Positions 2,415 through 24,243 of a stretch of DNA of 28,200 nt are shown piece by piece. Every line of letters begins with the position of its first letter. The first letter of the stretch is position 1. The translations under genes were made by a program, and so were the position numbers. Origin of the DNA: Ectocarpus siliculosus (lineage: Eukaryota; Sar; Phaeophyceae; Ectocarpales; Ectocarpaceae); NCBI GenBank assembly GCA_000310025.1, contig FN649752.1, positions 1,362,857 through 1,391,056 on the forward strand, read 5' to 3'. The notes beneath the pieces were generated by a model, which worked only from the letters and a program-made list of their open reading frames with translations, searched no databases and was not told the DNA's origin.

Positions 2415-5400
2415 ATGGCGAGCATGACGAGCGCGTGCCGGAATGCCACAAGGGCGGTGCTTTTCGCACGATGGCCATTGATTGCGCCCGCCAGGCTTGT
2501 TGTGCCCGTCGCGCCTGTCGCTGCTGTCCGAGCGCTGAGCTATGCACAAGACGGGGGGCAAGGCGGCGTACCATGGAGTGGGCACGGGAATGACGGGGGA
2601 GGACACGGGGTGACGGGAAGGAGCCACCGTCCCCAGCGTAGAGTGGTCGAGAGGCGACCCGGCGATTGGTGAGTTTGGCAATTGGTGTGTGTAGTAGGAT
2701 GTGCGTCGGGTGCTGCTGTCTCCTGCGTTTGTTGGCTCCAACAGGAGCCTACGGCTGCAGCTGACCGCACAAACTTTCCTCAGCTTTCAGGGTGTTGCCT
2801 CTCCTTGGCTGTCACACAAAGACGGGTGCCCTGCTTGATCGATGCTGCCGGCAACGCTGCTGCTGCTGCTGCAGCGAATTACGGTGCTGGCGCGGGCATG
2901 CTGTGCTGCTCTGCAATTTGGACGTTTGCGCCTCGTCGGTACGGCCGTTGACCACCACTCCCCTTGTACGAACAGGGCACGCAGCATTATAATAGAGCCA
3001 AGCGCCGACTCACCCCCCCCCCCCCCCCCCCGACTCCAATGGCGCCTATCGAGTACCTTAGCCGTTGGTGTTGGCGCAGTTTCCTGAGAACTGGACACAC
3101 AGCTACATACTGCTGTACTTTTTTGCTCTGACAACCGCTTCTTCTTGTCGTCCAAACTCTAATGGGATGGTTTTGCCTCCCATCTCCTGAGCGATGGGAG
3201 AGAGCTCTCCAGCAGATCGGTGGTGGCGCTCGTGCAGAGTAGTTGCGTTGATCTACAGTATACTGGCAACGGGCCGGTACTTCCCTCATCTGCAGGGCTT
3301 GGTCGTTAGTTGTGCATCCTCAATACCATGTCGCATACAATCGAGAACAAAAAAAAATATTATTGTCTATGTGTTGTATACGATACGTATACGATACGAT
3401 ACGGAGGAAATCTGGCAGCTCGTCAGCAGAGCGTGGTGCGGTCTGACAGCAGCTGTCTGGGGCTCTTCGTGAGGTGATGTCTCACACAACACCGACCGTC
3501 TCAGGAGGGCCCCGTGTTCTTTGGCCTACCCCCCTCCCCTCCCGCGCGCGCGCTACCGGTAGATGCTAGTTTACACTCGGTGATATCGATTGGCTTCGTC
3601 ACAGCAGTATGACGCATGATCTAGTCGCCAGTCTCCCGCACTTGGCAGCAAGCACGCGAACGAGCTTGCTTTCTCCCCCTTCCGCATCCATCCCTCCATT
3701 GTGGTCTTCACTCCCGCGGCCGCGATAGCGCCGTATTCGACGGCGTGATGCGCGCGCACACACGCTAGAAGAACAATGCCGAAACGAAGTTCCAAATCCC
3801 TCATGACACCACACGTGAGATCAGAGAAAAGTCGTTTTGCGTGTACGAGGTGTTGGGCGCGTTTCGCGCCGCGACTAAAGGTTTCGTTGAAGCGGCATCC
3901 TGCGTACGGGTGCGTCAGGTGTATGTAGATGGGTGGGGCTGTGATTGCGGCCGGAGCGAGCGAATCAAATGATGTCCAAAATTATCTACATTGTCGGACT
4001 TCTAGACTGAGGACACAAACACCAAACACCGTCCAGCGGTGACTGATGGTTCGCTCGACACACCGATTGCAATGCAACGTTCTAGACCGACCATTTTTCG
4101 TTTATCGTGGATCAAGCTGCGCGGGCGCCCGCAAAAGAAAGCGTCTAATTTATTGTGGTGGTTGCATTGAAGCGCTACATTTTTTTCGAACAGATGGATA
4201 CGTTTTTGACGGGTCTGACAAACTGCGACCTAACCTAGAGATTCATCGAAGCGGCATACTGCTTGCACGGAGTGGCGCGTCAGGTTTAAAGGGGTGGGGC
4301 TGTGATTGCGGCCGGTGCGCGCGAATCAAATGATGTTCAAAATTATCTACATTGTCGGACTTCTAGGCTGAGGACACAAACACCTACACCGTCCAGCGGT
4401 GACTGATGGTTCGCTCGAAACACCGATGCACGATTCTTGGAAAATGTACAAAGAAACACTGAAAGGCTGCCCGTTGGAGATAAAACCACAGTCGAAGGGG
4501 ATGTGTTGAAGTCGTTGCAGTGAGTGAAGGGAAACCGGACATTGCAAGAAGGCGGCCGACCACCGTCCGGTTGTCGTGGATCAAGCTTTGCGGCCGCGCG
4601 CGGGTGAAAGCGTCCAGCTTGTTTTTGTCGTCGCAATGCAACGCTGGAGTGATTTCTCGAACAGATGACGCTGTTTTCGACGGGCTCTCACAAAACTGCC
4701 GGTGTTATTCAAGCCGTCCCCGCTCCCCGCCCTCGTGCCCTGACCTTTGGGAGGGAGTAGCTTACGTAAGATACCACCACCCCTTGGACCAATCTTCGAA
4801 GCCCGATTGCTCTGCAGCACAAACTACTCCTGTAGTGGTGTCCAGGATGAAACTCGTGTCGTCGAGAGCTTTCCAAAATCTTGTGGATTGACTTTGGCTT
4901 CCTCTTGGTTGTTGAGTCATTGTACTCTGAAATGTGCGTCCATTGAGTGTGTGAAGTCGTGTGCAATCCTACGTAAGCGGTATAAGCATTTTACTCAAGA
5001 AGGGGGAATACGGTTGGCGAGAAGGTTCCGCCATCGGAGGTGGTGGATGTGTAGCCCAGAAGCAGGCAATCGAACCAAAGCCAAGACGGCGAAAAGCAAA
5101 AACAGTAATTACCTTCATGTGTCCTCGGGGGTTCCTGTCTCTCTCCTTGCTGTACCATCTGCGGGGGTGCCCTCCCATAGCGAGCAACCGGGCTGGCTTT
5201 GCAGGGTCGACCTTCCTCCTTCATACCATACCAGTACTCATAGCAGTAGTGGTGCGGGCCCGCAGATAAAAGCGAAAGGCTCAAATTTCCGCAACACAAT
5301 GTGAAGAGTGGGTTAACACAGCTCTTTTAGCTTAGCTGGAGATCTCAAGTATCCTGTACTCGACGGCGGTGATGACGTATGAAGTTGAGCTTTGACCCCA

Positions 5401-5870
5401 AATTGACGTGCATTTCCTCGTTCCCGTGCCCTCTACGTGTGCTGCCCTTGACCCTCCTCTCTGCCCGCCGGGGGCCCCGCAGGGACTGCCCGACGTGTGG
5501 CAACCACGTCTTCGCCTCGCGGTCCGTGTGCCCAAGATGCCGGGAACCCAAGCCGTACGAGGAGGGATGGGGGGTCAGCAGTTCCGGCGGCGGTGGGGGG
5601 GGGGGGTACAGGCAGAGAGAGCCGGTGCAGAAAAAGGAGGGCGACTGGGATTGCCCGTCGTGCCAGTTCCACAATTTCGCGAGCCGACAAGTTTGCTACA
5701 GGTGCCAGGCGCCAAGGCCACACGACGCGGACGATTACGGAGATGGAGGCGGTGGACGGCGGGGGGGAGGGGGGTGGGGAAGCGGTGGTGGTGGGGGGGG
5801 TGGTTGGGCCAGCGGTGGTGGCGGTGGAGGTGGGGGTGGGTGGGCTAGCGGAGATGGGGGAGGTTACTGA
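2415..5870 (+). CDS. Two-RanBP2-zinc-finger, glycine-rich protein, probably mitochondrial
   Basis: Two exons, 2415-2668 and 5483-5870, give 213 residues. The donor is ATTG/GTGAGT and the acceptor CCCCGCAG/GGAC; the join rebuilds GDWDCP in frame. Residues 1-43 are Arg/Ala-rich with no acidic residue, typical of a mitochondrial presequence. Finger 1 is W85 with C87, C90, C101, C104; finger 2 is W140 with C142, C145, C156, C159. Both have the CX2CX10CX2C spacing and the NxxFASR core of RanBP2 fingers. Residues 168-213 are almost all Gly with spaced Trp. Such fingers bind single-stranded RNA in ZRANB2, and in plant organelle zinc-finger (OZ) editing factors they occur in organelles, so an organellar RNA-binding role is inferred. 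The start is the first ATG of the presequence. The single intron is 2.8 kb. Confidence 0.85.
3013..3031. repeat. Poly-C tract (19 C) in the zinc-finger gene intron
   Basis: An uninterrupted run of 19 cytosines lies inside the 2.8-kb intron. Similar runs of 10-16 C or G occur at about 139-150, 10008-10018, 20727-20740 and 25667-25682. The exact length may be affected by sequencing. Confidence 0.9.
3885..4706 (+). repeat. Imperfect direct repeat of about 360-470 bp in the zinc-finger gene intron (family D)
   Basis: Two direct copies sit side by side. Copy 1 is about 3885-4245 and copy 2 about 4246-4706. Matching landmarks are GGGTGGGGCTGTGATTGCGG at 3931 and 4292 (offset 361) and CGTGGATCAAGCT at 4106 and 4575 (offset 469). 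Copy 2 thus has about 108 bp (around 4428-4535) absent from copy 1. Part of that segment (about 4466-4530) resembles 12212-12281 in PEX11 intron 1, suggesting a dispersed element. No coding capacity is recognised. Confidence 0.85.
4754..4875 (+). repeat. Dispersed repeat family A, copy 1
   Basis: This copy reads AAGATACCACCACCCCTTGG, then a GAAGCCCGATTGCTCTGCAGCA block, and ends near GTCGAGAGCTTTCC. The same ordered blocks recur at 14826, 24244 and 25403, all on the plus strand. It lies in the zinc-finger gene intron. No ORF of note is present, and it looks like a decayed non-autonomous element. Confidence 0.65.
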
Positions 5871-12967: not shown

Positions 12968-15900
12968 ATGCGATTGGAACCGCTGTGCTGTGAGTACGAG
13001 CTGAAGAGCGGTGGTGCTGTTGTAGAGCCTTTTGTCTCCTTGCACATGGAAGCATGCCTCAGTGCATGAGATAGCTGTACATGTGCGTAGCTCACATCGG
13101 GAACAGGACATGCGTCAACCTACATGCTGCATCAGATGCGTACAAATAAACAGACAGTCCCGTGCCATCCCGCTCCCGCCCCGCCTTGTCGCGTGCCTCG
13201 AACCTGGCCATGGCCCTGGACCGAATCTCAGATTTGTCTGCCCTAGCGGTGCTTCTCCCGCACCAGAGCTCCGCGTTCACCCCACGCAGCCTCTCCCGAG
13301 CAGCTCGAACAACCCCCTCAGGCACGTGCCCCCGTCAACAGCAGCACCTATGTAGCCGGCGGCACGGGGCGGCGGCGGCGGCACCTGCAGGCCTTTTCGA
13401 CCGGGGGGGTGCCTCGAGAGCGCTAGGGGGCGTGGCAGGGTCGAGGCGCAGGAGACGGCAGCATCGAGGGTCTTCGAAGCTGCACATGCTTGACCCGGGT
13501 ACGGCGGTGGCGGCGCTATCCACCGCTGTGGCGGCCGGCGGCGGGGGGGCCGATGGCGCTGTCTCCGCTTGGTCGGTCACGTCCATCACCAGCGACTTCG
13601 CCGCGGAGCTGTTCCAGGCGTCGCTGTTCCCGTACCTGGCGTTCCTGTGGCTCTTGAGCAGGAAGGAGACCAAGACGCCCGAAGGGGGCACGTTTGGGTT
13701 CGCCTTCCTCCTCGTCTTTGTCGTTGCCACCATCCCGGCCGGAATCTACGGTAAGCATTGCGCTCTTTCGCTTTTTGTGTTCGTCCCGCCACACTCTGCA
13801 GCGCGCTACACACCGAAATGTTTGTGGTTTATGGTTGACGTGTCAGGCGGTGCACGTAATTTTGGCGTGGGGGTCTTGGGGCATGGGTAGTGAAAGCGAC
13901 AGCCTCCATAAAATAAGGAAAAATAGAATGGGCCCAGCCGGGGGAAAGTAGCCACGTCTGAGCCTGTTATCGCTCCACAGCAGAGAACGAAGCTTTTGGC
14001 GACGGCAGACCACGCTTTGTAGCACTTTGTACGTGCTGCTTCGAAAATTTGCGGTCATTCCAGGCACGCGTGTTGGGAAACGAGATGATTTGTGCGCCAC
14101 CGTCTTCTTGCTGCCGGAGAACATTCTGGAGAGCAGCAGTAACCCCGCGATGCACGTGTAAACGGCCGAGTTTGGTTCCGGTTCAGAAACCGTTTCGACC
14201 CCCCGCCATTCCATCTTCGAAACGGTACAGCAGTAGATGAATTTTTCAACGGCGAGCGTTGGGAGTTGGGAGAGTCATGCAACCGGGCGGGTCCGGCACG
14301 CTGTTCATGCGGCGGCGTATCTCGTCGTCTCCCCGTGTTTCCGACCTCTGCTTCCACCTCGCTCCTCCTCGTCGTCCTTCATCTTGCCCTCCAAAACCGG
14401 GCCGCCATGCTGCTGCTGCTGATGCTGCTGCGCGTGGCTTCATCCGACCTTAGCCAAGACGGAGTACAACGAGATCCTGGCCAACGTGGACTACCTTCAC
14501 GGCATCGCGGAGTCGTTCCTAACCCTCACCAACCTTTTCATCGTCTCGGCCTTCCGTAAGGCGGTCGTCGGCAAACAGCCGGCCGCGGGCGGTGAGTGAG
14601 CGGCAGCAGTAGGCGCAGCAGGACCAGCAACATGGGGTTTGAACATCTACGTAGTGCGAGAGCAATATATCAGCTGCAAGTACGCATTGTCATAGCAACT
14701 CGACGAGTATCGTCGCGTTGCCTGTCTGAAGCTTAAAGCTTTCCAGTTTTTTGGCGGTTGATAAAGTCGAGGGCGCACACCGCGACACGCTCGCCCACCG
14801 AGAACGACAAAGAGTTCTGTACACAGAGTAGATGACATAACATATCACACCCACCCCCTGAACAGTTTTTAACTTTCAAAGCTCGATTACTCCACAGCAG
14901 AAAGCGTGGCCGGGCGGCGTTGGCACCGATAGCTTTCCGAAACAAACCTATCGTTTGACATCCTCGTCGTCGTGGACTAACATTATTTGCTGTGAATATT
15001 GATGATGCGATACATTATGTCACGTACTGCCGGTACATGCCATGCATAAGAACAAGGAGCACCCTCCACTTCAGTAAGTAATTGAAACCTCTCATTACCC
15101 ATCCATGAAGAAGTCGTTTTATACACTAATACTTCATAAGTGCTGCAAAAACTATCCATGGACGAACCCAGCAGTTCCGTTGTTGTTGTCTTCACCATTA
15201 ATTACAAAACCGTTCGTTCTGTTCTCTCTACCCAGTACCTTCTTCGTCTGTCCGTACTACTATGTATGATAGTCTGACACTTGACGCGGTCGATTCCCGC
15301 CGTGGTCACAGGCTAACTTACCCAAAAAGTTACACGAAAATAAAATTGACCCTAAGAAGGGTCCGCAAGTCAACGACAGATTATTAGTCTAGGACCCTCC
15401 GCTCGCTTCAACACGCTATGCGAGGTAGCAGCCATAGACTGGACAACGTAACAATAAAAAGCAAAACAATATTAGAGGCGACGTCACGCGCACCCGAAAA
15501 AACCGTCAGTCTTCAACCGCCACTTCTCACTACGCCCCATCCATGCTTTCAAGAATGCCGCCAATGATCTCGTTGATCTGTTTCTTTCGTTTACATGCAT
15601 GTAGCACGCACGTCACACCCAAATGAAAAGGAGACCACACCCAGAACTCGCTCTTCCTCACGCTGGGAATGAATCCGGGACTTAATGAATGCGGACGCCA
15701 GAGGAGATGCACTTTTCACTTTAGGTTATCTCTCCGGAACGAGAGAGCCGGAGGAGAGAGGGGGGGAAAAGCAGAGGCGTAGTAAGCGTTCCCCGTTATG
15801 GACATATCGTAAGAGTCATATTGTGGTGGTGGCAGGAACCTCTCTCCGCACGATCAGGTTAGAAGGCCATCAGTCCCCGGGACTCTTCTGTTGCACCCAC

Positions 15901-18900
15901 CCGTGGACGCAGCAGTAGTAGTAGCGCATGTCCTTTAGTAGACCAATACTACTGCTGAAAATATTGGAGACCACGAATCATAGGGACAGGTGGGTTGTGG
16001 GTGGGCGGGGGACCCTAAGAAACAGTCAGACTCAGCCAGTGCACATCCTCACAGTGTATTGTATTGAAAGCAGGAACGAAGGGCGATAACAAAAGAGAGA
16101 CCGCCAGCGACAGGAAACAAAGAAGTAGAGGAGAGCAGAGCTAAGAAACAGGTGAAGAAACAAGGCCCCCTTGCCGCTCTGACCCACCGGAAGCTTTCCA
16201 TGTACCGCAGCAAATATCAGGGGCAGCACCCACTACCTCACAACATGCAGTACCCGGGTACACGGACTGGTACGTAGTGGAAGTTTAGTCTCTTTCTCCG
16301 GCAAGAACAATTAACACCCGGGCGAACTTGAACTTGTTGTAGTCACAAGAAATAGGGTCATGACGACGTACTTCATTCTGCTTGCCGTGGGAGATGCGCA
16401 TCGTTACGCGAGGAAGGCGTTGACTCCTCGCACAGAATATTATGCTGCCGTAGACCTTATCCCTCAAGCTCAACCACAGCTGTACCCGAATATGGTAGCA
16501 TCATATCCAGCTGTAGAAGAATCGAAAAAAAATCTGTTTTCTTGGTGGCGAAGCGGGCCCTCTTTTTTGTGACTCTCCAACTGCTGTTCGTGAATGGCGA
16601 CGACATGGCGACACAGACAGACAAAATCTAGGGTTTGACGTCGGTCTTATCCGCCGCAGGAGGTGGAAGCTACTCAAAGTCGGGGAGGGGTCGTGATTCG
16701 CAATTCCCTACGGAACCGTACTTGAGGCGCCATGAGATTTATTTGCACTGCTGTAGCCGAGGTTTTTAAATAGTCGGCAGGGAAACACAAAAATAAAATC
16801 TTCGGCGGACCGGGCCCTCTTTCTTTCAACTGGCCAACTGTTGTTTGGATGGCGAGACAATTTCCGGTCTTCTTGTCCGTCACAGGAAGCCGAAGCTGAT
16901 ACTCAAACTGGGGGAGGGGTCATTGGTTGCGATTCCCTCCCGAACCATACTCGCTCGGGGCACCACGTCATGGACATGACAAGAAAAACACCCCCCCAAC
17001 GAAAACTGCTGAAATTCATGGATGGGTGGGTGAGTGGGGAACCCCAAAACAATGATACAGTCGCGGTTCGCGTTGTTCTGGGGCCCTACCGGCGAAAAAA
17101 GACACCGTCGCCGCTCTGAACCGCTGGAAGCTGTCACACAGCACTGCATGTGCGGCGAACCGTAGGGGCCATGCGCATTGCTTGACGGCAAGAGGCGGCG
17201 CCCATCGCCTCACATGCAGCAGCCAGGTACACGGGTAGCCTCCTACTCAGCAAGATGCAAAACGATTGCCGTTGACGTTCGACGTTATAGGGACCCTAAC
17301 GGCGAAAATGCAACAGAGAGAGAGAGAGAGGTAGACTAAAGGAAGAGAGACTCGAGAAGACAAGGCATGAACTCTCGAGAAGACACTCACTCTCATCCAT
17401 CTGGCCCACCGCAGGCTTGAACACGTGTAACGAACGGCGACATCCGATGTGCGCTCAGCAACAATAAACACGACCAAAGAAAAATAGTCGTCGTTTCCGA
17501 ACTGCTGTGGAGATAGTGTAAGTTGGTGGAGACTTTCTTTCTTTTCTGGTATGAAGTGGCAACAAAGAAGAACACGACTATCTGTGTAGACTAGAAGCAC
17601 GACGAAAGAAACTATCATCTCAATGCGCTTGCCGTCGCGATAGATGCGCACCGCTACCGCTATACGAACGAGCAGACTGTTGTCAAACCTGACTACGATA
17701 ACCGTACGACCAACCGCATGTATGTGTACATGCGATGGTGGTCACTCAAGAACAAACGCAAAAAAAAAAAAAATGTGGCGCGCAGCACGAAGGACCCTAT
17801 TTCGCTGTTCAACCGGCCGTTTCCATGGCGAAACAGGCAAGGAACAGTCGAGGCCGACTCTTGCCGGCTACAGGAGGTGGAAGCTGCTCAAACTCGTGGA
17901 CGGCTCATGATTTGCGATTCCACACCGAACCATACTCGAGGCGCCACGAGATTTGCACTGTAGCTCGAGATCAGCATTTTAGACCGGGTCGGGCAATGGG
18001 TGGGGCATACGAATGAAAACTTCCACGGATATTGAACGATGAGACTGAAGCTAAAGATTGTCAACAAGGGTAGCAGCACCAACAACAGCATCGGAGGTAT
18101 CAACACGTACTATACGCAGCGTTGTAGTGCGAGAACAATGACCGCTGCAAATTTGAACCGCCAGCAACGGTAGGAGCGTCGGCAACAAACCTCGGGGGAT
18201 ATCGACACAAGTAGATGGCAGCACCGAGAGCAGGAGGTAGTTGTTTTTTACATCGTAGAGGCCCAGTTTGAGGAGACACGCGCGCCCATCTTTCGCTGGC
18301 CTACCATGGACAATAGAGGGTTCAAGCGTCCTGCATGCTGTGGTGTCTGCCCTCGATCTTAGCGCGGCAGTTCGGACGCAAGCTTATCATTTCCATCGAA
18401 CGTTCCCGCATGGTTCATTTGGCTGTCGGTGTTGTCGGAGGCGTAGTAGGAGGTTTGGCCAAACGGCTTCGTGTGTAGGGTACACCATTACGTCAGTTGC
18501 GGGGCCCCCTCGACATGCCGACTGCGTAGGACACGATGCGCGAAGTGAAGATATATACGGTTTAACACGTTGAAGAGAGTGCCCTACAATAGATGTTGGG
18601 TTTGCCTCTTCAACGAGAAGATTTTGTTTTTTTCTCCAGCAGGTGGACGACGCGTGTTTAATTAAAGACCCCGAGTCACCTACGGAAAGGAAAACAGTTA
18701 TCGTACCTCCCCTCCCCCCCCCCCCGTGCTCCCGCCTTTGCCCAAACTGTGCCGGTTTGAAGGAGCTGGAAGTACCGCGTTGAGGAGCAGCACGGCGGCG
18801 GCGGCAGTAGCAGCCCTCGCAGCAGCACCGATGGTGAGCGTTAGCGTTCACTCAAGGACGTCGTCTTTCAAGGAGGTTCAGTGGGGTACATGGCGCTATG

Positions 18901-21900
18901 TAGAGGTGCACTCGGTCGAGGCATGCTCCATGTAGTGCTTGGCTGGGTGCTCGGTTGATGCACGGTTACGAGGGCAACGGGAGCTTGGCTTGATGGCCTG
19001 GTCAATGACCCTCTTGTCACGAGGGGGGTGGTTGGTGGATGCATGCTTTTGGAATCAGAGGGCGTTCGACTGTGTGTGCGTTCGTCCCATCTATTCTGGC
19101 GCCGGTTTTGAGGCCTTTCGGCGTAAATACCATACCTGGCGCATCAGCCGAGGGCACACAAGAGCAAAGTCACGCAGGAGTTCTGTGTTGACTAAAGGTT
19201 TATTAGTATCGAAGGTGCACCAGTCTTGTCACTGCTGGTGTTGTTCCCTGGCTGTTTGGGCACGTCTTTTCGTCGTTGCTTGGCTACAGCTGTAGTAACA
19301 CCTTTTTGTTTTGCTCATTTTTGTGGGTGATCGTGTCAATGTCCAGGTTTCTAAAACAACGTCTTCCTCCGCAATACTCTCCATAGGAGGTACATGGTAT
19401 GGTATCTCGCTTTTTTCCCCGCTTCTCTCCCTCCCATGACTCCGAAGTGATACCGATAGGATGGATAGGCTAGAAAAAGACATTTTTGAGCCACCATTGG
19501 CAAAGTAGGAAGGAACGATTGGCCATTGGTGATCGGTCCTGTGGGAACAATGCTCCGTCCAGCCTGGCTTGCGCGTGTTGTCGGTTGATGTTGTTGGCAT
19601 TGCCGGGAAAGTTGTCACGGACGGACGGCCACGCCTTGCGTGCTGCCTGCCTGAACATGCTTGGTACGTATCCCACAAACCAGCATAAACATACGTGCCT
19701 GCAGTGCCTGCCTCTGCTTGACACAACCACCGCACACACATAGACATGCGTGCTGTCGCTTGGATTGGCAGTGTGCACACATATACCCGCCTTTACCTGA
19801 TGCCTTTGCTTGAAATGCCAGAGTACGTATGTACTACATGCACATGCTTGTTGATATACCGGCGTACTAGTGGATACATACGTTTACCACGTTGGTCTTG
19901 GTGCGTCTGCAGATGCTCGCCGCGGCGCACACGGAACCGGGGAACGCCCTGTCTTTCCCGACGTGGATGGTGCACGTGTCGAGCTTGATCGAGTGGCTCG
20001 CTGCCATGACCTACGTTTGGAGGTGATATGATTACCATACCCCAGTAACACACCGCACGCAAGACATCCTGTCTGCGGCGAAGATCGTCTTAGAATTGCT
20101 TAAACCCATGGCGCTCACTGCGGTAGCTTTTAAGAGCAACACCGCGTTGTGCTATAATACCCGTTTAGCAAACGTCATACAATGATAGATTCACAAGCTC
20201 ATTTTTTGGTACAGCTATAGCCCTGTATTTTTGTCTTTTAGCCTTGTCTTGTAGGAGCGATCAGGGAGTAAATAGTGTGATTTGGCTACGGCGAATTAGT
20301 GGACACGAAAAATCGATTGTTTCCCTCCTTTTGAAATCATGTCCTCCATTGCGCGAACCCCTTTCCACCCACCCCCGCCAGGTGGACTTGTAGCAATGCG
20401 GTGGTCTTTAAGCATGCTTAGTTTGGAGCACGTTGAACACTATCGTGGTGTGGTGGCGCGATTCAAAGCACACCATGATGTCTTCCATGACATGGAGCAC
20501 ATTTGGCGTTTTGGACCCCTCCGCCCGCCCCCACCTGCGACCGCCTTCCATGCCATCTCTTCGTCGCGAGAAAATCAGGTTCGCGGACGTGTCCGGCCTT
20601 AAGGAGTGGAAGGGGTTAACGTGGGGCATGCTGCCCCTACACACGAGCGGTCTGATCGCTTGCACGTACCACATCTTCTACAACGCCCCCGAGCTTATCT
20701 CGCTTGTGGCGATGCAGGTGCGACCCCCCCCCCCCCCCACACTGGCCATTCATGGTTTCTGGCATGTACGGTGCCGCCACAATGGCGTTCAAGTACTGCA
20801 GTAGATGCTGTCGGGTCTTTGGCGCCGACGCCACTTGATTTGACTTCAGCGGGGATTCCGTGGGGGGTTGACTGCGATTATTTCATTGGTCCAATTCTAC
20901 AGTCCAATAGACCCCCGTCACCGCCGCGCAGCATCTGTTAGGCACGGCTCGCCGTGGCCCTTCTTGGTAAACTTATTGATCAGTTTTCAGGAATCGTGTT
21001 GGAGGACAAGTGGAGTTCTGCCCATCATCGCAGTGACACGGTCGCGACTTTATTTTTTTTATTGTCGCTCAAGGACTGGGGTTTGGCTTCGGGTTGAGGT
21101 CGGGGTGGTTCGGCGAGCGCACCGAGAGACCCAGCCGCCTGCACCCCAGCGATGGGGCGCGGGACCGCACACCCCCTCGGCTGCTGAATAGCCGCCGGCA
21201 GGAACAGTTCCGTTCTTCGCCTGAGTTAAGTGCCGTTCAGCGCGCGTGGCACACAGACGTGCTCGGTATGAGCGAGCAGGTATGTATGTATGTATGAACG
21301 TGCTCCGGGCCGCTGTCTTCGTTGCGTACGGACGTCACCCGCCTGCAAAGCAGCAGTCTCTAATTTGAACGGCATCGACCCGACTCGAAAATCAGGCGGG
21401 GCTGACGTGCTTCGGGAACGCTACGATGGCGTTCGCTACGTGGAGAGTCTGGCAGGCGGGGAAGCAGGAGTGGAGGGGAGACGAGGTGGAGGAGGCGGAA
21501 GCGGCGGCGGCGGCGGCGGCGGCGGCCAGCGAGGGGTGAGGAAGCAGGGCTAAATAGTGCGACGCCTCCCTTTGACGTTGTCGGACCGGCCTTCGTGGGC
21601 AGTTGTCGGACCGCCTTCGCGAGAAATTAAGTTTATGAGGAACAAGAGCAGGGAGGGGGGTACGCAGACCCTATCCCTTACCCTAAACCCTAACCCAGCT
21701 TCCCCGATTGCATCCTTTATCCGATGTGTGTAATAAATCGAAAAATTCTGCCAAGGCCACTGATTTTGTCCCCATGCGAGTGTTGCGCGATTCTGTGTGT
21801 CGTCTAGGTGTTAGCAGTAGTGGTGTGAAGTCTTCAGGAAGTAAATAGCCAGGGGGGAGGGCGTGCTCATGTTTTGCATACCTTAGCGGTTAGGCCTTCG

Positions 21901-22593
21901 GCCATGTAGGGGTGAGTTGCCGTCATGGGAGGGTCAGAAGTGGAGAACCTTTTCGTACCATTCAATATTGCCTGCTTCATGCTTCACCCAGCTCGCGCGA
22001 CAGACGCTCCCCCCCACGACCCACAAAAACCGCTCGCAATTCCCCGGTCTTGGCGCAGCTAGCTAGCACAAGGGTGTTGTCAGCCCGGGAAGCTGGTGTC
22101 TATTGTCGTCCTTCTTGATGAATCATAGCAGCCTGACTCGGCTGATCGCCACGTACCCGCATCACGCGAGGCCGATGGTCTGACGACTATGGCCTGTGTG
22201 CCCTGTGTTTTTTTTTTTGTTCATGCAAGGGTTTCCTCCGGAGTGGGCGGGCTCATGAGAGCACAGTAGTACCATCAAGCGGTGATTGCTAGATGATATA
22301 AGGAAAGCTCGAACAGCCCTATAGCTGACGCGTTTAGACTCGAAGAGCCCAGCGAACCACATCCACTCCAAGAAGAATATTTATCCAATCTGAATACCGG
22401 CTTACATACCCCCCCCCCGCTACGGACACCTTCTTTTAACGCCCGAGAAGCTTGTGGTGGCTGGTTTCAACTGCCACCAAGGCATCGAGAAAAGAAGGAT
22501 ACCACCCCCGCTTTCCCTTCCCCGAACCGCTCTGCCTCGCCGTTTCGCTCTTTTTGACACACCCTGTGGCTTGTGACCGGTACGTTTTTCGTG

Positions 22594-22652
<59 letters not shown>

Positions 22653-22975
22653 GTGTCTCTCTCTCGCTCTGTCTGTCTGTCTGTCTCCCTCTCTCTCTGT
22701 ATGTGTGTGTGTCTCTCTCTCTCGCTCTGTCTCTCACTCTTGGCAGGGAGGCCTCATCGTCCCTTGGTGACGATGTTCCCTTCTACGGCCAGGTACTGGC
22801 GATCACGGTGGTCGGAGCGGCGCTGGTCAAGTGGGGGGAGCTCTACCTCGACTTCCCGTTCCAACCGTCGTACGCCGCGGCCGCCGCGCTTATCCTTGGC
22901 CCAACCGCCCTCAACGCCAAGAAGTGGGCAGATAGGAGCAAGGATCCCTCCGCTGCGATCGAGGGCATCATCTGA
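12968..22975 (+). CDS. Plastid membrane protein: DUF3593 + Ycf49 (DUF2499) + C-terminal helical module
   Basis: Proposed exons are 12968-12989, 13232-13750, 14454-14591, 18763-18833, 19913-20022, 20579-20717, 21396-21535 and 22747-22975, giving 455 residues with every phase consistent. The start MRLEPLCYLSALAVLL..SSAF gives a signal peptide with the plastid SAF motif. The alternative ATG 13210, unspliced, has the same length but an acidic n-region. Residues about 130-222 are DUF3593 (FPYLAFLWLL, IPAGIYAK, LHGIAESFLTLTNLFIV). Residues about 259-355 are Ycf49 (NALSFPTWMVHVSSLIEW, WGMLPLHTSGLIACTYHIFY, GLTCFGNATMAFATW). An Ala/Glu linker follows, then residues 380-455 with two hydrophobic segments (around VVGAALVKWGELYL and AAAALILGPTALNAKKW). 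Both named families are cyanobacterial/plastid membrane proteins of unknown function. The weakest joint is exon 18763-18833. If it is wrong, the DUF3593 part could end at TGA 14597-14599, leaving two genes. Confidence 0.75.
14826..14960 (+). repeat. Dispersed repeat family A, copy 2
   Basis: The copy carries CACACCCACCCCCTGAACAG, then TTTCAAAGCTCGATTACTCC, ACAGCAGAAAG and a GATAGCTTTCCGAAA end. The order matches the copies at 4754, 24244 and 25403. It is inside the long intron of the Ycf49 fusion gene. Confidence 0.7.
15985..17245 (+). repeat. Pair of diverged direct repeats around 16 and 17 kb
   Basis: The segment 15985-16275 and the segment about 17015-17245 share ordered blocks. These are a GTGGGTGGG/GACCC-like start, CCGCTCTGA with CCGGAAGCT or GCTGGAAGCT, and CCTCACA with ATGCAG leading to GGTACACGG. 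The spacing is about 1.0 kb. Family B copies lie between them, so the whole looks like a duplicated composite element in decay. Confidence 0.55.
16547..18030 (+). repeat. Dispersed repeat family B, three direct copies
   Basis: Copies are at about 16547-16790, 16805-16970 and 17790-18030. Each starts near a GACC/GGGCCCTCTTT-like block, passes an AGGAGGTGGAAGCT-like block, and reaches GATTCC, GAACCATACTCGAGGCGCC and GATTTGCACTG. The third is the fullest and continues to GGTCGGGCAATGGGTGGGGC. An inverted copy lies at 6885-7010. No transposase-like ORF is visible, so this is a non-autonomous or remnant element. Confidence 0.75.
19454..19560 (+). repeat. Dispersed repeat family C, copy 1
   Basis: This copy contains TTGGCAAAGTAGGAAGGAAC followed by GATTGGCCATTGG and GTGGGAACAATGCTCCGTCC. 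The same blocks occur at 26698-26850. It is located in the intron between 18833 and 19913 of the Ycf49 fusion gene. Confidence 0.85.
21501..21522 (+). repeat. GCG trinucleotide run coding poly-alanine in the Ycf49 fusion protein
   Basis: A run of GCG codons near the end of exon 21396-21535 encodes about eight alanines after a Glu-rich stretch. It links the Ycf49 domain to the C-terminal helical module. In another frame it reads as poly-glycine, but the Ycf49 homology fixes the alanine frame. Confidence 0.8.
21669..21696 (+). repeat. Short interstitial telomere-like tract
   Basis: Four CCCT-based units of mixed 6- and 7-bp length (CCCTAT, CCCTTA, CCCTAAA, CCCTAA) plus CCC occur in a row inside intron 5 of the Ycf49 fusion gene. 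They match the complement of TTAGGG/TTTAGGG telomere repeats. Confidence 0.75.
22597..22740 (+). repeat. CT microsatellite adjoining the last splice acceptor of the Ycf49 fusion gene
   Basis: About 140 bp of CT dinucleotides, with interruptions such as CTGT and ATGTGTGTGTGT, ends only a few bases before the CTTGGCAG acceptor at 22746. It appears to serve as an extended polypyrimidine tract. Long Arg/Glu or Ser/Leu reading frames across it are artefacts of the repeat. Confidence 0.95.
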
Positions 22976-23143
22976 TTAGGGGGGGTGTCCTCGACGCTAG
23001 GAAAGAGGGTAGATAGGTGCAGTGAACGTTTGGCTGCATTCGATAGCATCATCTGCTCGGGGAGGGGGGGGGGGTGCCCTCAATGCCATGAAGTGGGTAG
23101 ACAGGAGCAAAGATCCCTCGGCTGCAATCGAAAACATCATCTG
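22908..23143 (+). repeat. Three tandem copies of the coding 3' end of the Ycf49 fusion gene
   Basis: The last 67 bp or so of coding sequence (22908-22974, encoding LNAKKWADRSKDPSAAIEGI and the terminal I) recurs at 22989-23054 (diverged) and at 23077-23143 (close). Both extra copies lie after the TGA stop, separated by G-rich spacers. The third copy keeps an open frame reading LNAMKWVDRSKDPSAAIENI followed by IW and a stop. A possible weak fourth trace is at about 23505-23540. Confidence 0.9.
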
Positions 23144-24243
23144 GTAGGGGTGGGGGGGGGGCATGACCGCGCGTGTTGATGACAGCCAAAACTTGTTGCA
23201 TCCAGTGTCTCACACCGTGCAATTTCAAACGTGCGATTATCAATGTTGATGTTTTGTTTTGTGTGGGTGGCCGTAGGCGTAAACCTGTGGTTCCACACGA
23301 TTGGCGTTGTATGTAACGGTCGCGGTGTATGTCGGAACGAATGCCTCCAATAGAAACCCACACGTCTGGTCGCGGACTGGACTGGATTGGGTTGGACGGT
23401 GTACGGGTATATCGAATCACATGATTCTGACGACCGATTGACGGGAAGGAGTCGACGTTTGACGACACGCGCCACCGTATGACCTCCTCATCTATGAAGA
23501 AGCTGCCCCAGCTGCAGTCGAGAGCATCGTTGTGCATGAGGTAGAATAGTATTTTCCCCAGTCGTGCCTCGAGGGCCGCGAGGCTTCGTTCGGTTGGAAA
23601 GGCTGAGTTGTGTCTCAAGAGAGGAGGACTGGTCAGACCTTACCTCTAGGTTCGCGTTTTTTATCCCAATAAAGCCCGACGAAAAAAAAGGCGGAGTGAT
23701 AAGCGCGAACGCCAACACGGGGGGCGGGGCGGCTCTGCCGAGGGGTGACATAATCCAAAACATGTGGCTGGTTCCTAGGACGTCAATCGGCCGATAGCTA
23801 TTGTAACTTCTTTTTTTGGGGGGATGGTCCTGGCGGCGCGTGGACAGTCAACAGCTCAAAGGAGGGTGGGTGTTCCTGAAGAAGGCTGAAGAGGCCAGTT
23901 GATGTTCTAAGGCAGGCAACAAGTCCTTTTTGTGTTGGTTGTTTCTCTCGTGTACCCGCAGACGGAACCACGGGCCGACCGAATAGCGCTTACATAACTC
24001 CACAATCCTGCTGAGGATTGGTTTCTGGCCCCCCCCCCAAAAAAAAAAATGCTTCATTTTTACGGTCGTCGGCATTGTTTCGTGTGACACACAAGCGCTC
24101 CTATTATAGTGCGGCGGGGGGACACGTCCATCTTCTCATTTTTCGTCTCGCAACGATAAAATGTCACGTCTTCCGAAACCGCAACCGTTCGTTCCTTGTG
24201 TTGATTATTTCTTGAGATGTCTGCCTACGCCTCACATCAGTCT

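Follow-up and report, generated by a model that had tools for sequence, protein, structure and literature searches.

Among the closest described systems to the gene considered here is a diatom gene model: a 2012 table on silicon transporter gene clusters lists Thaps3_38514 of Thalassiosira pseudonana with DUF3593 and DUF2499 in one protein (PMC3478156), and a DUF3593-DUF2499 fusion is thus already in print for a diatom. The parts of PMC4603697 that treat ycf49, the DUF2499 gene, put it next to petL on one side and ycf4 on the other in the plastids of cyanidiophytes and eustigmatophytes (petL-ycf49-ycf4-trnG-psbEFLJ), and the eustigmatophytes are recorded as retaining it in the plastid (PMC4603697, PMC3999925). 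The literature that we found consists of table lines and plastid gene inventories and, to that extent, assigns no function to DUF3593 or DUF2499/Ycf49; an apparent mention of ycf49 in PMC6015050 is Ycf4 with a superscript 9. Here we describe a locus of the brown alga Ectocarpus siliculosus, in a stretch of 28,200 nucleotides (the window, in which all coordinates below are positions; contig C27 of a 189-Mb assembly of 492 contigs), where the two families very probably form a single fused gene that continues into a third, C-terminal module. The same genome yields 880 first-look candidates for the EsV-1-7 repeat family, and all 150 of those scored match it; an expansion of this family is a hallmark of brown algae. 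New here are the close ties, both genetic and phyletic, of the DUF3593-Ycf49 pair to photosynthesis and a possible third partner.

The original prediction, made from the letters of the window, had proposed that DUF3593, Ycf49 and a further membrane module can be read in one frame from eight exons with matching phases. Rebuilt as a GT-AG join of eight + strand exons between 12968 and 22975, this model yields 1368 nt and 455 amino acids with zero internal stops; all seven introns are GT-AG, and the phases agree at every junction. The family names were also correct, and both domains are complete: hmmscan against Pfam places PF12159 (DUF3593) at residues 132-218 (profile positions 2-87 of 88, E 1e-35, 122.1 bits against a cut-off of 25) and PF10693 (DUF2499/Ycf49) at residues 262-350 (profile positions 1-89 of 89, E 8.2e-35, 119.4 bits against a cut-off of 22.1). 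Both matches lie above the gathering score of the Pfam model and span its whole length. The module that had been noticed behind Ycf49 is there as well, as a tail of about 75 amino acids with two hydrophobic stretches, encoded by exon 8. The parts of the gene model are as follows.

12968-12989, + strand: exon 1, encoding MRLEPLC..., with a GTGAGT donor, phase 1 into 13232
13232-13750, + strand: exon 2, presequence with SSAF-TPR and PF12159 positions 2-52; G+C at third codon positions (GC3) 0.78
14454-14591, + strand: exon 3, PF12159 positions 48-87; read-through would meet the TGA at 14597-14599
14592-18762, + strand: long intron (4171 bp) from DUF3593 to the tentative linker
18763-18833, + strand: exon 4, tentative alanine-rich linker; GC3 0.61
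19913-20022, + strand: exon 5, start of DUF2499/Ycf49, PF10693 positions 1-30
20579-20717, + strand: exon 6, middle of DUF2499/Ycf49, PF10693 positions 26-72
21396-21535, + strand: exon 7, end of DUF2499/Ycf49 (to PF10693 position 89 in the joined protein) and an acidic/alanine linker
22747-22975, + strand: exon 8, C-terminal third module (VLAITVVGAALVKWGELYLDFPF...), entered by a phase 2 match, stop TGA at 22973

Exons 2, 3 and 5-8 have a coding-like GC3 of 0.78-0.89, and the six introns measured have a G+C content of 0.49-0.58. Exon 1 is dispensable: an ATG at 13210 alone opens the exon 2 frame, and the join of exons 1 and 2 gives a signal-peptide-like N-terminus. In a six-frame search of the whole genome, the two DUF3593 matches are exons 2 and 3 and the two DUF2499 matches are exons 5 and 6, exon 7 giving no separate PF10693 match on its own; the searchable part of the 189-Mb assembly, gaps excepted, yielded no further locus of the two families. 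The long intron contains degenerate dispersed repeats at 16547-17954 (a 52-bp unit in three copies, 96 bp in two and 42 bp in two), among them the pair 16645-16740 and 17859-17954, which are 80% identical. We also considered a common ancestry of DUF3593 and Ycf49: MAFFT overlays them nearly without gaps, yet the profile-profile probability, with the one-open reading frame (ORF) fusion described below removed from the Ycf49 rows, is 0.1-0.5%, and the idea was rejected at the sequence level.

In cyanobacteria, the two families are encoded by a recurrent gene pair, which the original prediction had named as a point to check. A scan with the DUF3593 segment returned 48 cyanobacterial loci; 42 of them have ycf49 upstream on the same strand, five of the remaining six genomes carry it elsewhere, and in the sixth (G007, 1.8 Mb) it was not found. 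In 40 of these 42 loci, the fused locus L008 and the contig-edge locus L032 being left out, the DUF3593 start lies between -43 and 516 bp from the stop of ycf49 (start codons chosen by script), and ten of them show 4-base overlaps. Our survey of 244 genomes of the cyanobacterial phylum found DUF3593 matches in 114 and DUF2499 matches in 110, and every one of the latter 110 also has DUF3593; the genes are adjacent on one strand in 82/110 genomes, and all 83 adjacent pairs have ycf49 in front. Outside the ycf49/DUF3593 cluster, any given neighbour recurs at 17 of the 48 loci at most. At L008 (4620-5288), in the Leptolyngbyaceae metagenome-assembled genome (MAG) HOT.MB2.61, Ycf49 and DUF3593 share a single 223-aa frame with both Pfam domains.

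The pair tracks photosystem genes closely. PsaD is present in 113 of the 244 genomes and PsbO in 112, the copies in G191 carrying stops in both cases. Stop-free best matches are found for DUF3593 in 111 genomes, all of which also have stop-free PsaD; PsaD is stop-free in one genome more (G095), making 112, and 132 genomes have neither, so that the stop-free status of the two agrees in 243/244 genomes; DUF3593 and DUF2499 are jointly present in 110 of the 112 genomes with stop-free PsaD, and the PsaD genomes without a DUF2499 match number 3 of 113 (G095, G213 and G191). The losses point the same way. G155 is the spheroid body of Epithemia turgida (EtSB) and G191 that of Rhopalodia gibberula (RgSB); in the part of PMC5638926 that concerns them, EtSB is described as having entirely lost photosynthetic ability and RgSB as having no functional photosystem genes found. 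In both genomes DUF3593 is interrupted by in-frame stops and DUF2499 has no match, and since the two are related endosymbionts we take them to stand for roughly a single loss event. By these measures the two families have the distribution expected of core photosynthesis genes. The functional tie first proposed for the pair thus comes out stronger than it was put, through co-occurrence, adjacency and the tracking of photosystem genes. The plastid placement of ycf49 is circumstantially in line with a part in photosystem biogenesis.

Several observations weigh against so simple a picture. The pair is non-adjacent in 28 of the 110 genomes, and the Ectocarpus order, DUF3593 before Ycf49, is the reverse of the cyanobacterial ycf49-first order, so that mere read-through of the ancestral pair does not account for the algal fusion. 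G095 matches neither DUF3593 nor DUF2499 but has PsaD, PsbO and a member of the small two-helix family discussed below, and G213 carries DUF3593 without DUF2499, both absences being in assemblies of uncertain completeness; the G095 gap reflects either an incomplete assembly or a real loss. Two of the 111 stop-free DUF3593 genes are not plainly intact: the match in G062 stops at profile position 71, and in G119 (locus L169, G119:C71:25300-28600) a group II intron (Rfam RF00029 match) with a 595-aa ORF resembling a reverse transcriptase/maturase interrupts the gene, PsaD and PsbO of this genome being stop-free. Outside the survey, among 14 named control genomes, Synechococcus elongatus matches DUF2499 and PsaD and none matches DUF3593; this photosynthetic species seems to have Ycf49 but no recognisable DUF3593, the gene being absent or diverged. 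Finally, co-occurrence with the photosystems fits assembly, pigment, quinone, lipid or transport roles alike.

Proteins of ochrophyte plastids carry a signal peptide followed by a transit peptide that starts with F, W, Y or L at an ASAFAP-like site. In the Ectocarpus protein, an SSAF-TPR sequence, which we take to resemble this cleavage motif, stands behind a moderately hydrophobic stretch and is kept with either start (12968 plus splice, or the ATG at 13210). This one SSAF motif suggests that the fusion protein may be targeted to the plastid.

The origin of the third module is about evenly balanced. Its 75 amino acids match no Pfam family and no NCBIfam family. The genome holds one full copy of the tail; its other matches are a degenerate copy next door and one weak match on contig C2, which on inspection was judged to be due to chance. 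The last 69 bp of exon 8 together with the next 10 bp (22907-22985) are followed by two degenerate tandem copies, the farther of which can still be translated in the frame of the tail peptide, with 70% identity across 30 amino acids.

About 22989-23066, + strand: degenerate tandem copy of the exon 8 3' end
About 23076-23153, + strand: second degenerate tandem copy of the exon 8 3' end

In 117 genomes of the cyanobacterial phylum, the best match to the tail is a 66-aa two-helix protein (E 0.059). It leads to a small two-helix family (alignment A1) found in 90 of the 244 genomes at E<=0.01, in 82 of them below 1e-5; four of its members, compared with Pfam, NCBIfam or both, match no family above the cut-off. 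The comparison of the tail with this family depends on the profile. A profile of 19-20 members, seed group excluded, gives 10.8 or 9.5 bits, with 2 or 4 of 5000 hydropathy-class shuffles scoring as well and an hhalign probability of 39%. The 56-member profile, again without the seed group, gives 12.8 bits (P 5e-6, hhalign 82%), a score that is reached by none of 5000 composition shuffles and by one of 5000 hydropathy-class shuffles. With the larger membership the tail ranges from 12.8 to 15.3 bits with hhalign values of 82-87%, and Ycf49 proteins score alike: against the 56-member profile they reach 14.6 bits (two stretches summed, best single stretch 10.0), compared with 12.8 for the tail (single stretch 12.4). 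Because Ycf49 proteins score as high as the tail, we lowered the claim of homology to suggestive; a common origin of the tail and the small cyanobacterial family has, on these alignments, roughly even prospects.

The rival account, that the module is an unrelated, lineage-specific tail without a cyanobacterial ancestor, comes just short of an even chance. It is favoured by the lack of a library match, by the poor showing of the 19-20-member profile and by the high scores of the presumably unrelated Ycf49 proteins. Moreover, non-photosynthetic G155 carries a stop-free copy of the small family, and 26 of the 113 PsaD genomes show no match to it. What speaks for kinship is the result with 56 members and the pattern of the alignment, in which the invariant K23 and P45 are kept, Y24 is replaced by W and K10 by Q, and L53 and R56 fall outside the aligned part; in addition, among 4991 ORF frames from cyanobacterial loci, only Ycf49 frames come near the score of the tail. 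It is conceivable, though rather improbable, that DUF3593, Ycf49 and an unnamed small cyanobacterial membrane protein form an ancient membrane device on which photosynthesis depends and whose parts were welded into one chain in the brown alga. If this were true, it would bring to light a missing member of the photosystem-building machinery, nameless in the family libraries searched and without a function in the literature that we found.

AlphaFold models of the cyanobacterial orthologues from locus L005 are three-helix bundles, with mean pLDDT values of 93.1 for Ycf49, whose middle helix is kinked, and 89.7 for DUF3593. A comparison of the Ycf49, DUF3593 and small-family profiles with the PDB returned no chain at E<=1. 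Cyanobacterial photosystem structures have been deposited in the PDB, so the absence of these families from PDB chains makes a stable subunit unlikely and an auxiliary role likelier. We propose that the nuclear gene would give rise to a plastid-targeted polytopic membrane protein in which the three-helix domains DUF3593 and Ycf49/DUF2499 are followed by a short membrane module at the C-terminus, and that this fused protein would replace the separate cyanobacterial Ycf49 and DUF3593 proteins. The two three-helix domains may pair in the thylakoid membrane and help to assemble or maintain photosynthetic complexes, acting as an auxiliary factor rather than a stable subunit. A plastid-targeted auxiliary factor for the assembly or maintenance of photosynthetic complexes is the best explanation that we can offer, and we consider it somewhat better than an even bet; in it the plastid and thylakoid location, the physical pairing and the assembly role are inferred.

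The pair could instead be linked to photosynthesis in another way, as a transporter or as the partner of an enzyme that supplies pigment, quinone or lipid to the thylakoid. The phyletic profile suits any function confined to photosynthesis, and fold matches do not constrain the mechanism, Foldseek against the PDB with the Ycf49 and DUF3593 models returning nothing below E 1, which also tells against the assembly role. Each family, however, has about 100 amino acids and three helices, which is small for a transporter or an enzyme, and plastid ycf49 sits among photosystem genes in the arrangement given in PMC4603697. We regard such a supply role as possible but on the whole unlikely.

It has also to be considered whether the locus holds two neighbouring genes, a DUF3593 gene closing with the TGA at 14597 and, beyond it, an independent Ycf49 gene that starts between 14600 and 19912 and whose own first exons have gone undetected. 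The original prediction had pointed out that the sequence at 14592 can be read as a splice donor or as the end of an ORF, and this ambiguity is real: the frame stays open to TGA 14597 after a complete DUF3593. In addition, an ATG opens exon 5, and no open in-frame direct splice leads from 14591 to the acceptors between 19700 and 19960. With phase 1 at the end of exon 3 and phase 0 at the start of exon 5, a direct splice from 14591 to 19913 is out of frame, and a fusion that uses the present exon-3 donor at 14591 consequently needs some bridging exon. Here the evidence for one gene is at its thinnest, as the interval from 14592 to 19912 offers 403 frame-compatible single bridging exons of 25-300 bp, and exon 4 is one of the 13 that have a GTRAG donor; with so many bridges, phase agreement alone proves little. 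The exon 4 acceptor, with 8 pyrimidines in 15 positions, is no weaker than those of exon 6 (6) and exon 7 (8). Of the proposed fusion, then, the in-frame join and its domains hold (hmmscan, frame), and the mature transcript, with its splices across the 4.2- and 1.1-kb introns, is a prediction in which exon 4 is one bridge among many.

Other considerations nevertheless favour a single gene. A nuclear Ycf49 would need a targeting sequence of its own. A scan of 14600-19912 for ATG frames of at least 25 amino acids with a 9-residue Kyte-Doolittle window of at least 2.0 near the start, a search that a multi-exon presequence would escape, returned four frames, none like a canonical plastid presequence. 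In the one at 19039, which carries VCAF, the hydrophobic stretch overlaps and follows the motif instead of coming before it, and the five phase-0 donors of this frame include no GTRAG site. Both domains are listed in one multi-TM (transmembrane) protein in the diatom gene model, and partners that cyanobacteria keep together here share one strand within 10 kb; that two such genes should adjoin by chance in 189 Mb is, we infer, unlikely. Two separate genes are therefore improbable, and one fused gene, with splicing deduced from the genomic sequence, is the reading in which we place high confidence. The fusion hints directly that DUF3593 and Ycf49 work as one unit in a step of photosynthesis that has yet to be assigned.

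A kinship with KcsA-type channels was considered and set aside, as 11 of the 12 phmmer matches of the joined protein at E<=10 (best 0.0007) align a helix-plus-charged stretch that we read as composition, the twelfth being one unrelated chain. Viral contigs scanned with the fusion and the tail yielded zero eukaryotic relatives. Elsewhere in the window lie the following features.

482-763, - strand: likely EPSP synthase exon (PF00275 positions 3-31), near the edge of the stretch
1004-1132: tandem array of a 20-bp unit, 6.4 copies, 97% matches
5376-5867, + strand: ORF with a RanBP2-type zinc finger (PF00641) and a glycine-rich tail

Set beside the known systems, the Ectocarpus protein as predicted resembles Thaps3_38514 in that DUF3593 and DUF2499 sit together in a single multi-TM protein, in both cases from a photosynthetic stramenopile; the diatom model differs in being a bare table entry, which, in the part of PMC3478156 concerned, comes without discussion of a third module, targeting or function. 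With plastid-encoded ycf49 of eustigmatophytes, cyanidiophytes and Cyanophora, the fusion shares the DUF2499 family, whereas that gene, as inventoried in PMC4603697, is small, separate and plastid-borne, neither nuclear nor fused. Given that eustigmatophytes keep a plastid copy while the diatom model and Ectocarpus join Ycf49 to DUF3593, either the fusion predates these groups and the plastid copy persisted in some of them, or it arose more than once. The cyanobacterial ycf49-DUF3593 pair likewise has both domains at full length, but as separate proteins, with ycf49 first and no third module attached. The L008 fusion also unites both families in one open frame; it differs in having Ycf49 first, in lacking a third module and in being bacterial, and it comes from one MAG, in which a sequencing error is possible. 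The small family A1, finally, is like the third module in its size, its two hydrophobic stretches and its K-[YW] and P pattern, and differs in being a stand-alone protein of about 60-70 amino acids whose homology to the Ectocarpus tail is suggestive.

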